Shown: positions 15,241 through 64,000 of the stretch, piece after piece
Position numbering within the stretch: position 1 is the first letter of the stretch
How the letters are laid out: every line of letters begins with the position of its first letter
Origin: Candidatus Sulfuritelmatomonas gaucii
GTDB lineage: Bacteria; Acidobacteriota; Terriglobia; Terriglobales; Acidobacteriaceae
Length of the DNA: 64,000 nucleotides
Reading direction: 5' to 3'
Assembly: GCA_900290245.1 (NCBI GenBank)
Contig: OKRB01000103.1
Coordinates: 17,756 to 81,755 of the forward strand
Position numbers and translations under genes: made by a program
The notes under the pieces: generated by a model
Seen by the model: only the letters and a program-made list of their open reading frames with translations
The model's database searches: none
Told to the model about the DNA's origin: nothing

Positions 15241-15420
15241 TAGGGAATAGGGAGAAGGGAACAGGCAACAGGGAACGGATAACAGGGAACAGAGAAAAGA
15301 GAAAATCGGGGTGGGATCGCAGGATTTGTGAATGATTTTAATAGGCAATCCACGCGTAGGATGGAAGTATTGCCCACCTGGTTTTTCTATTCCCTATTCC
15401 CTAATCCCTGTTCCCTGTTT
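15241..15420. repeat. GGGAA(C/T)AG-type short repeats in inverted orientation around a ~90-nt core
   Basis: GGGAATAGGGAGAAGGGAACAGGCAACAGGGAACGGATAACAGGGAACAG on left; TTCTATTCCCTATTCCCTAATCCCTGTTCCCTG on right. Confidence 0.7.
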
Positions 15421-42263: not shown

Positions 42264-42397
42264 GGCGGCGCTGCACCCGCCGTTTGGCAAAAACAGCCCA
42301 ACAGCGGGTATGGCTGCCCTCCTGCGGTATGGGCGGCGCTGCCCCCGCCGTTTGGCAAAAACAGCCCAACAGCGGGTATGGCTGCCCTCCTGCGGTA
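42264..42397. repeat. 68-bp tandem duplication
   Basis: two near-identical copies of GGCGGCGCTGC(A/C)CCCGCCGTTTGGCAAAAACAGCCCAACAGCGGGTATGGCTGCCCTCCTGCGGTA..; period 68. Confidence 0.95.
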
Positions 42398-42642: not shown

Positions 42643-43152
42643 AAGCGCTTGGTAATCCTGGCGCTAAATCCCGCTGACGGGCGCTCGTCGCTATTCATGT
42701 CGAACGGGGCCTATCAATGCCCCGAGTCCGGGCTTCTTCAGTGAACGATGTCGGGACTTGGCGCCATGCGCGCGTGCATTTCTTGAAATCAAGAAACGTT
42801 GTTCGCTTCTGATTTGCAGTTCGGAAGATTCGAGGGCTATTTAGAACGCCCGCGATTCTCCCGCGAGGCACGTTGACTGCGATTCGTGGTGAACAAAAAC
42901 GGAATGCCAGGAGGCAGGCAACTGCTCTCGAATGGAGAGCGGGCTTGAATTCCTCAGGAAAGTTTTGTCCCGGCTCAAGGGAGACACTCAACGGACTCGC
43001 CGTACCAGAGATTGCCAAGAGCAACGCAAGAAGTCGGGTAGGGCGAGCCAAGAAACCAACTTCTCAGGAGATAGACCATGACACAAACCGTTACCAAGTC
43101 AAGGAGACGTTTGACGGATAGATCTAAGAAGGGACTGGGAGTGCTATGGATA

Positions 43153-43228
43153 GCACTCGCCATGATGATCGTGGCTCTCACACCGCGTGTGCACTCGCCA
43201 TGATGATCGTGGCTCTCACACCGCGTGT
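43153..43228. repeat. 38-bp exact tandem duplication in the receptor signal peptide
   Basis: GCACTCGCCATGATGATCGTGGCTCTCACACCGCGTGT x2. Confidence 0.97.
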
Positions 43229-44537
43229 GTGGGGGCAAGACAACGCAACGATCGCCGGGAATGTCGCAGACTCGAGCGGAGCGATGGTCCCCAATGCGGC
43301 GATCGATCTGACCAACAATGCGACCGGGCAGATAAGAGAGACGACGTCAAACACTGTGGGCGCCTTTCGCGTCGCTAATGTCGGCATTGGCACCTACACC
43401 CTCACAGCCACCGCCTCGGGCTTTGAGAAGTTCACAAGAACCGGCATCGTTGTGAACGTCGCTCAGTCACTGGAGGAAAACATCACCCTCTCAGTCGGCA
43501 GCCAGGCGCAGACCGTGACCGTGCAGGCCGATGCGTTACAGGTGCAGACAGAGACCAGCGAAGTGAGCACACTGATCAGCGGCCAGCAGGTCGAGCGCCT
43601 GGCGACCAACGGACGCAACATCGTGCAGCTCGCTGCTCTGGGCATGGGCGTGTCGAATAGCCTCGCTTCCTTTGGCGGCATCAATGCTCTTACGTCTTCA
43701 AGCAACATCACCTTCAACGGCACCAGATCAACGCACAACGTCTACCTGCTCGATGGCACCGAGCTGAACGATCGCGGCTGCGGCGGCTGCTACATGGTTC
43801 TGCCGTCACAGGACTCGATCGCCGAGTTCCAGACGCTCCAGAGCAACTACAGCCCCGATTACGGCATCGGCTCCGGCGGAACGATCACCATGGTGATCAA
43901 GTCGGGCGGTCGCCAGTATCACGGCGAGGTGTACGAATACAACCGCAACACGGCCTACAACGCCAACGACTACTTCAACAAGCAGGCGGGCAGAACCAGG
44001 CCGGAATTCATGTTGAATGAACCGGGCGGCAACATCGGCGGCCCGCTCTACATTCCGCATGTCTACAACGAAGGCAAGACCCGCACATTCTTCTTCTGGA
44101 ATGAAGAATGGCGCAGGCTCATCCAGGGTGCTACGCCCTCCCTGTACAGCACGGTCATGGCGAACGACTTCCCGACTGCAGGCCAGGACCTCAACTACAC
44201 ACCCTACGTGGCGAATGCTGTGATTCCGAAAGTACCCAACCTGCCCAGCAATGCAACCTATACAGCTATGGAAACCGGCCTGGGGTTGACACCGGGACAG
44301 CCATTCCCTCTCAACGCCAACGGCACCTACAGAATTCCCAGGCAGATGATGGATCCCAACACAGTGGCGGAAGCGAACTCGGGTGCATTCCCGAAGCCGA
44401 ACCTCGCCAACGGCTACCAGTTCACGGCTTCGCCGGCGCAACCAAACTTCGTCCGCGAGGACGCGGTACGCATCGATCATGCCATCAACAGCAAGATGCA
44501 GTTGATGGGACACTACGTGCATGACGCAGTGCAGCCG

Positions 44538-44599
44538 ACGTTCTTCCCGCCGTTGTGGCAGGGCAGCTACGTTCTTCCCGCCGTTGTGGCAGGGCAGCT
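44538..44599. repeat. 31-bp exact tandem duplication inside the receptor gene
   Basis: ACGTTCTTCCCGCCGTTGTGGCAGGGCAGCT x2. Confidence 0.97.
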
Positions 44600-46875
44600 A
44601 CCCGACAGTCGGAACGCAGATGTTGAACCCGTCCTATACTGCGGCGATTAAGCTCACGCAGACCTACTCGGCGAACCTGCTCAACGAAACCGCACTCCTT
44701 TATAGCGGCAACAAGATCTTCCTGACACCGATTCCGGCAGCGGGTGTCAAGATCAAGATCCCCAGCGGGTGGAGCGCATCCAGCTTCTTCCCGATTGCCG
44801 ACAGCGCGGGTGACCTGATGCCTGCGATCACCTTCTCGGGCAAGCCGTTCGGCGCAACATGGAGCGGATCTTACTTCCCATGGAAGAACGGCTACGAAGG
44901 ATTTGAATACAGAGACGATCTTTCCTGGACGAAGGGCCGTCACCAGTTCAAATTCGGCGCAGGCGTGCTCCACGATTACAAGAACCAGCAGTTGCAGGCA
45001 AACACCGAGGGAACGGCGAACTTCAGTTCGAGCAACACCAACTACTCGGGCGATGCCTACATCGATTTCATACTGGGTCTTGCCAGCCAACAGCTTCACC
45101 CAGTTGCAATATCTGTCTGACAAACACTGGGTCAACAACAACTACAACGGTTACATCAACGACAACTGGCACATCTCGCAGCGGCTCATTCTTAACCTTG
45201 GAGTACGTTATGACGGCATGCCGCATGCCTTTGAGCGGTACGACCAGTTCGCCAACTTCGTGCCCGCGTTTTACAACACTTCGCTGGGCAATCCTGTCAC
45301 AGCTGCCGGAACGCTCGATCCAACCAAGCTGACCACGTTCAGCTGCTCGACGACGCGCTGCCAGACCAACGGAGAACAGTTCTACATGAACGGCCTTGCG
45401 GAAGCAGGCGTCAACGGCTTCCCGCGCGGCAACGTGACCAACCGGTACTTCACCTGGCAGCCGCGCATCGGGTTCACGTACGACGTCTCGGGGAACGGCA
45501 GGACGGTACTCCGGGGCGGCGTGGGCATGTTCTATGAGCGCGTTCAGGGTAACGATGTTTATAACGCTGCTTTGAACCCGCCATTTGCCTATCAACCTTC
45601 GGCAAACAACGTGATGTTCTCGAATCCGTTTACCAGCGCGTTGACGGGTGCGACCACCTCGCAGAGCTTCCCGTCGGGCATGACCACCATCAAGTACAAC
45701 TATCCGCCTCCAGGAACGGCAGATTACAGCTTGGGTATCCAGCATCAGCTGATGCCGTCGGTCATCGCCGTGGTTCAGTACGTCGGCTCTACGGGCTGGG
45801 ATCAGAACGACGACCGGCCGATCAACGCCCTGCCATTGAGCGATTTGACCGATCGCCAAAAGGTTGCCGGGGGCACGGGCGCAAACCCCTACCGTACTTT
45901 CCCCGGATACGCCGGCATCACCCAGGAGGAAAACGAAACCAACTTCAACTACAACTCGCTGCAGGCCGGACTCCGCATGGAAAACAAGCATGGACTGACC
46001 ACGCAGCTTTCTTACACATGGTCCCACAACATCGACATCGGCCAGAACGACCTGGCCGGGCTGACTGCTCCGTGGAACGCGAAGTACGACAAAGGCAGCG
46101 ATGCCGGTTATGACCGCCGACATATCTTCAATGCGAGCTACGTTTACGATCTGCCGTTCTTCCAGAAATCGTCGAACCTGGCAGCGCGTGAAATCATTGG
46201 TGGCTGGTCGGTCTCCGGGATCACCACGCTGGAGACGGGGACCCCGATCTCGATCGGCCTGTCCGGTGTCGATACTGTGGGTCTCGGCAGTGGCGGCAAT
46301 CGTCCCGACCTGGTTTCGCCGGTGGTCTATCTGAATCCGAAGGCGTCAATCGGCGGATATGGCCACTATTTCTCGAAGGCCTCCTTTGCCACACCGGCAA
46401 CAGCCTGGAGCGGCCTCAGCACAACCAACGGATACGGCACGGCCAGAAAAGACACGGTTCATCTTCCGCCGTGGGACCTCTGGAACCTCTCGCTGTTCAA
46501 AACCATTCCGCTTACCCCGGGTGAAGGCACGAAGCTTGAACTTCGGTTTGAGTCTTTCAATACCTTCAACCACACCATCTTCACAGGCTTAGATACAAGT
46601 AGCGGCGACGGAAACTTCGGTTCCGTAACCGGCGACTTCGCACAGCGCGTGCTGGAGCTGGGCGGAAAGATTACCTTCTGAACCGGAACGCTTCATAACC
46701 CGGGCGCGGCATGGCAAACCATGTCGCGCCCTTTTTCTGCGCATTTTCGGCTTGAAACGATTTGCATGGCGCCTGCAACTTCACTTGCAGATACTGATTG
46801 CGATGGCTCACCATGACAAGGGCGAGCAGGGTCGCGTGCGTCGCACGCGAAGTAGCGCGCTCCGCCTGGGTCATA

Positions 46876-63684: not shown

Positions 63685-64000
63685 ATTATCCTGCCGTGGA
63701 GCCTCCGAAGGATCTGGCTGCATTGCAGCGCGAGATGGCCGCGGCCGTCATGCAGCCGCTGACCGCCGATGAATCCATGCACCGGACCACCCGGGACGGC
63801 CGCTCGACGTCGGCTGTCGCGGAGTCGTTCATCGCGCCCAACAGCCGGCTCACGCCGTTCGAACGCCTCGAGATCTACAACCGTCAGTACTGGTTCCGTG
63901 TGCTGGGTTCTCTCGCCGAGGATTTTCCTGGCCTGCGCGCCGTGATCGGCGGCCGGCGCTTTGAAGCGCTCTCCATCGCCTACCTGACCGAACACCCCAG
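63681..64000 (+). CDS. bufC: DUF2063-like MNIO partner protein, truncated by window end
   Basis: MNYPAVEPPKDLAALQREMAAAVMQPL...RLTPFERLEIYNRQYWFRVLGSLAEDFPGLRAVIG; ATGA overlap with bufB. Confidence 0.88.
   Translation, partial: MNYPAVEPPKDLAALQREMAAAVMQPLTADESMHRTTRDGRSTSAVAESFIAPNSRLTPFERLEIYNRQYWFRVLGSLAEDFPGLRAVIGGRRFEALSIAYLTEHP

Follow-up and report, generated by a model that had tools for sequence, protein, structure and literature searches.

The window, the whole stretch of 64,000 nucleotides that was analysed, contains an outer-membrane receptor gene on the plus strand at 43078-46681, which as assembled lies in three reading frames. The translated fragments matched the carboxypeptidase-regulatory-like family PF13620 (66.6 bits, cutoff 32.3) and PF25183 (364 bits, cutoff 30), and PF00593 reached 26.4 bits, slightly under its cutoff of 27. 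Since the fragments carry both an N-terminal carboxypeptidase-regulatory-like domain (CarboxypepD_reg) and an outer-membrane barrel (OMP_b-brl_4), the gene was assigned to the Oar-like TonB-dependent receptors. As shown by tblastn, intact relatives of the receptor (1165-1210 aa, 60-70% identical) aligned with 43078-46681 as three collinear pieces in three frames, which bears out an earlier reading of the locus as one receptor gene split over three frames. The first piece started at the site of a 38-bp duplication, and the boundaries between the pieces fell at a 31-bp and a 4-bp duplication, at about 44567-44570 and 45065-45099. In a relative of 1181 aa (L117), residues 28-489 aligned in frame 1, residues 479-655 in frame 2, and residues 641-1181 in frame 3. 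The likely start ATG at 43078 is put out of frame with the receptor body by way of the 38-bp site, and the main receptor frame is opened by a later ATG at 43146. No further decay was seen in the gene outside the duplications. Its domain content and length are those of the Oar-like, CarboxypepD_reg-containing receptors of Acidobacteriaceae, and the apparent frameshifts are its sole departure from them.

An exact 38-bp tandem duplication is located at 43153-43229 (plus strand) in the signal-peptide region, within the poorly conserved leader of the receptor, and its copies share 1 bp of flank. An exact 31-bp tandem duplication, with 2 bp of shared flank, is located at 44538-44601 on the same strand. 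Both are probably unmerged contig overlaps. At about 45082-45090 (plus strand), the motif GCCA is doubled (GCCAGCCA), giving a frameshift relative to the homologues. These three duplications are present in the sequence as the preliminary description had stated. In this study, we also found a near-exact 68-bp tandem duplication of the same class at 42264-42397 (plus strand), 0.75 kb upstream, which had been overlooked. Its copies differ at one internal position and in the last two bases, and it adjoins the end of what we take to be an ASPIC/UnbV-type fragment.

No other exact tandem pair was found in the 64-kb window at the longer unit sizes that were counted (10, 12, 15, and 20 bp); therefore, the exact 31- and 38-bp pairs are not due to chance. 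Exact 4-bp pairs are frequent, at about three per kb in the window and nine within the receptor gene, so it is only the coincidence with a frameshift that makes the 4-bp duplication stand out. This site may stem from an indel or other base-level error, from a join across an overlap of only a few bases, or from a genuine frameshift mutation, and unmerged overlap does not explain it with any certainty. If real, the 4-bp frameshift is sufficient alone to break the receptor gene.

Tandem duplications across the genome and in relatives

The source assembly is a draft of 162 contigs and 5.29 Mb, from which 1.75 Mb was sampled. Ten exact two-copy tandem repeats with a unit of at least 25 bp were found in this sample, with unit lengths of 30, 31, 36, 38, 45, 47, 49, 51, 55, and 57 bp. 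In the first 1.60 Mb, where units of up to 2000 bp were also sought, 57 bp was the longest exact tandem unit. The homology at the flanks was 0-1 bp in eight of the ten cases, 2 bp for the 31-bp unit, and 4 bp for the 57-bp unit (L225), which is located inside a repeat rich in glycine and is possibly natural. Four more duplications were near-exact, with one or few internal mismatches: the 68-bp duplication in the window and others of 68 bp (L076), 45 bp (L086), and 58 bp (L221). The 13 exact or near-exact duplications that are not natural correspond to approximately one site per 130 kb at which a segment of 30-68 bp is doubled, apparently falsely, with no N to flag it.

The genes that carry these duplications are unrelated. 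They encode a TPR protein, an HPt protein (L023:13036-13137), a P-type ATPase (36-bp duplication, L209:12645-12717), a second receptor-like protein (L076), and a dihydroorotate dehydrogenase-like (DHOD-like) protein (58-bp duplication, L221:4405-4520). No frame preference was observed, as the duplications were spread about equally over the residue classes modulo 3 and some were in-frame.

The preliminary description had proposed a comparison with sister strains. We examined 1.59 Mb from relatives, including several draft metagenome-assembled genomes with N-gaps. Except for one natural array of 78-bp (and 156-bp) units, no exact tandem unit of at least 25 bp was found in this set, and near-exact tandem units were few and were short or simple. 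Within the receptor, copy number was compared at the 31-bp site. In G102, query positions 1-72 and 69-140 matched overlapping bases, a pattern shared by G015 and G009, so all three relatives hold a single copy of this site. Dozens of relatives have one copy of the 58-bp site of the DHOD-like gene as well (for example, G019, with matches at 2369-2498 and 2447-2581). The 36-bp site in the P-type ATPase gene gave one weak partial match only, and the N-gap sites in L230 and L220 gave one-sided matches only. Because relatives have one copy at both the 31-bp and 58-bp sites, the single copy is ancestral there. By itself, this is compatible with both a recent mutation and an artefact; it is the assembly evidence that tells them apart.

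Scaffold gaps and contig ends

Most N-gaps in the sampled 1.75 Mb are exactly 10 N long. We found that 13 of the 47 gaps have an identical exact sequence on both sides, with overlap lengths of 18, 20, 21, 23, 26, 48, 51, 52, 53, 54, 58, 63, and 63 bp. Gaps flanked by exact overlaps of 21-63 bp are located at L087:832, L095:10304, L197:18202, L204:18207, L205:8025, L215:18790, L220:9176, L230:2363, L237:128, and L248:3518. In the relatives, none of 21 N-gaps had the same sequence on both sides. Examination of 145 contig ends revealed three pairs from different contigs with overlaps of exactly 63 bp, the same length as the overlaps at two of the N-gaps. A ceiling of 63 bp is common to contig ends, gap flanks, and gapless duplications, which points to unmerged de Bruijn ends with k of about 63. 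Such a ceiling fits a k-mer size and no biological process.

The distribution of these joints was also examined. Eleven of 52 joints lay within 2 kb of another, compared with 5.9 expected; since some shuffles reached 18, the clustering is weak. N-free tandem duplications were not enriched near N-gaps. At the receptor, three or four events fall within 2.8 kb, which is denser than the genome average. Four 10-N gaps lie inside 5.2 kb in L018. The density at the receptor likely reflects a local patch of low coverage or a tangled graph. A 10-N scaffold gap also starts at the base right after window position 64000 (L071:1-10, G000:C155:81756).

Origin of the duplications

It has been reported that overlapping sequence at contig boundaries becomes a tandem duplication on scaffolding, termed homotype false duplication (PMC8081667), and that false copies joined through incorrect gap filling are a known artefact (PMC9516828). 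The duplications in this assembly resemble these artefacts, in which an unmerged contig-end overlap yields tandem copies with or without a gap between them. Their copies are identical and adjacent or parted only by a scaffold gap, the class recurs at other joints of this assembly up to a size that the assembler would dictate, and the sites in the receptor (31 bp) and the DHOD-like gene are single-copy in close relatives. They differ in that the overlaps are tens of bases long, on the k-mer scale of short reads and not of read length, and in that the genome is bacterial.

We conclude, with a probability of about 0.92, that the 38-bp, 31-bp, and upstream 68-bp tandem duplications are assembly artefacts derived from unmerged contig overlaps. 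The overlap between two short-read contig ends would have been shorter than a de Bruijn k-mer (about 63), and the contigs would have been set side by side in a scaffold with the overlap unrecognised. The overlap would then have been written twice, separated by 10 Ns in some places and by none at gaps that were closed or set to zero. The pattern suggests a failure of the scaffolder or of gap closing, and k of about 63 would be the assembler's setting. The near-exact duplications of 68, 68, 45, and 58 bp, whose copies are mismatched, would require base errors at contig ends in addition. Thus, the duplications exist in the file but very probably not in the organism, whose chromosome most likely has a single copy of each segment within an ordinary receptor gene. 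The receptor would then probably be intact in vivo, provided that the 4-bp site is also an error.

The preliminary description had presented the gene as broken by three duplications, which is probably untrue of the organism, given the same class of duplication in unrelated genes and across 10-N gaps. It had offered recent inactivation, a reversible switch, and an assembly artefact as options. The genome-wide class, its size range, and the overlaps at 10-N gaps favour the artefact over the other two. Recent pseudogenization and a reversible switch were both rejected as main explanations, as duplications of this class are spread over the whole assembly. That the duplications are real, and that an unusual homology-free process in this acidobacterium inactivates or switches genes through copies of 30-60 bp, appears very unlikely.

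A real recent inactivation would place the duplications in the cell and knock out the receptor, as in the loss of a phage receptor. As would be expected of such an event, each of the two long duplications causes a frameshift and the gene is otherwise undecayed. Nevertheless, we consider it very unlikely, because a single hit would suffice, because like duplications occur in unrelated genes, sometimes in-frame, and across 10-N gaps, and because their size ceiling equals the length of the contig-end overlaps.

We also considered a genome-wide mutator that generates homology-free tandem duplications of 30-60 bp, for example by end joining with fill-in. With a single exception, the junction homology is 0-2 bp, and the duplications are spread over the genome of this organism and absent from relatives, which is consistent with such a process. 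However, it leaves unexplained the identical overlaps that flank 10-N gaps and the overlaps of exactly 63 bp between separate contigs. A mutator is therefore highly improbable. A literature search on microhomology-mediated tandem duplication in bacteria found nothing relevant.

Exact tandem duplications can revert by recombination or slippage, and surface receptors are frequent targets of phase variation. A reversible on/off switch in which a tandem copy is gained and lost is thus conceivable in principle, and the frame-shifting copies in a surface protein gene resemble phase-variable tandem-repeat genes. Known phase switches use many copies of a short unit, or inversions, whereas here two long copies occur at separate sites and also in non-surface genes. 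A switch is scarcely credible, since no second allele was observed, the 31-bp site is single-copy in relatives, reversibility would be lost with three independent sites in the same gene, and the class is not confined to surface or regulatory genes (P-type ATPase, HPt, TPR, and DHOD-like genes). A literature search for phase variation by tandem duplication in TonB-dependent receptors found no papers, which counts for little.

With assembly artefacts as the preferred explanation, neither a switch nor a pseudogenization need be invoked, and the artefact is an ordinary one with nothing new in it. The value of the case is mainly as a warning, as such sites would be annotated automatically as pseudogenes with frameshifts or as tandem-repeat switches. 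Whether the same sequence flanks N-gaps and contig ends provides a quick test for the artefact that does not require reads.

Repeats of other kinds were also observed. The natural array in relative G008 (L112:17030-18092) is an in-frame 78-bp repeat of about 13 copies. In the organism studied here, heptamer arrays (AGGGAAC, CTATTCC, and AGAGAAC-like), which are probably intergenic, occur at 15242-15305 and 15387-15416 of the window and at L082:17746. Strings resembling these arrays occur in relatives (L114 and L122).
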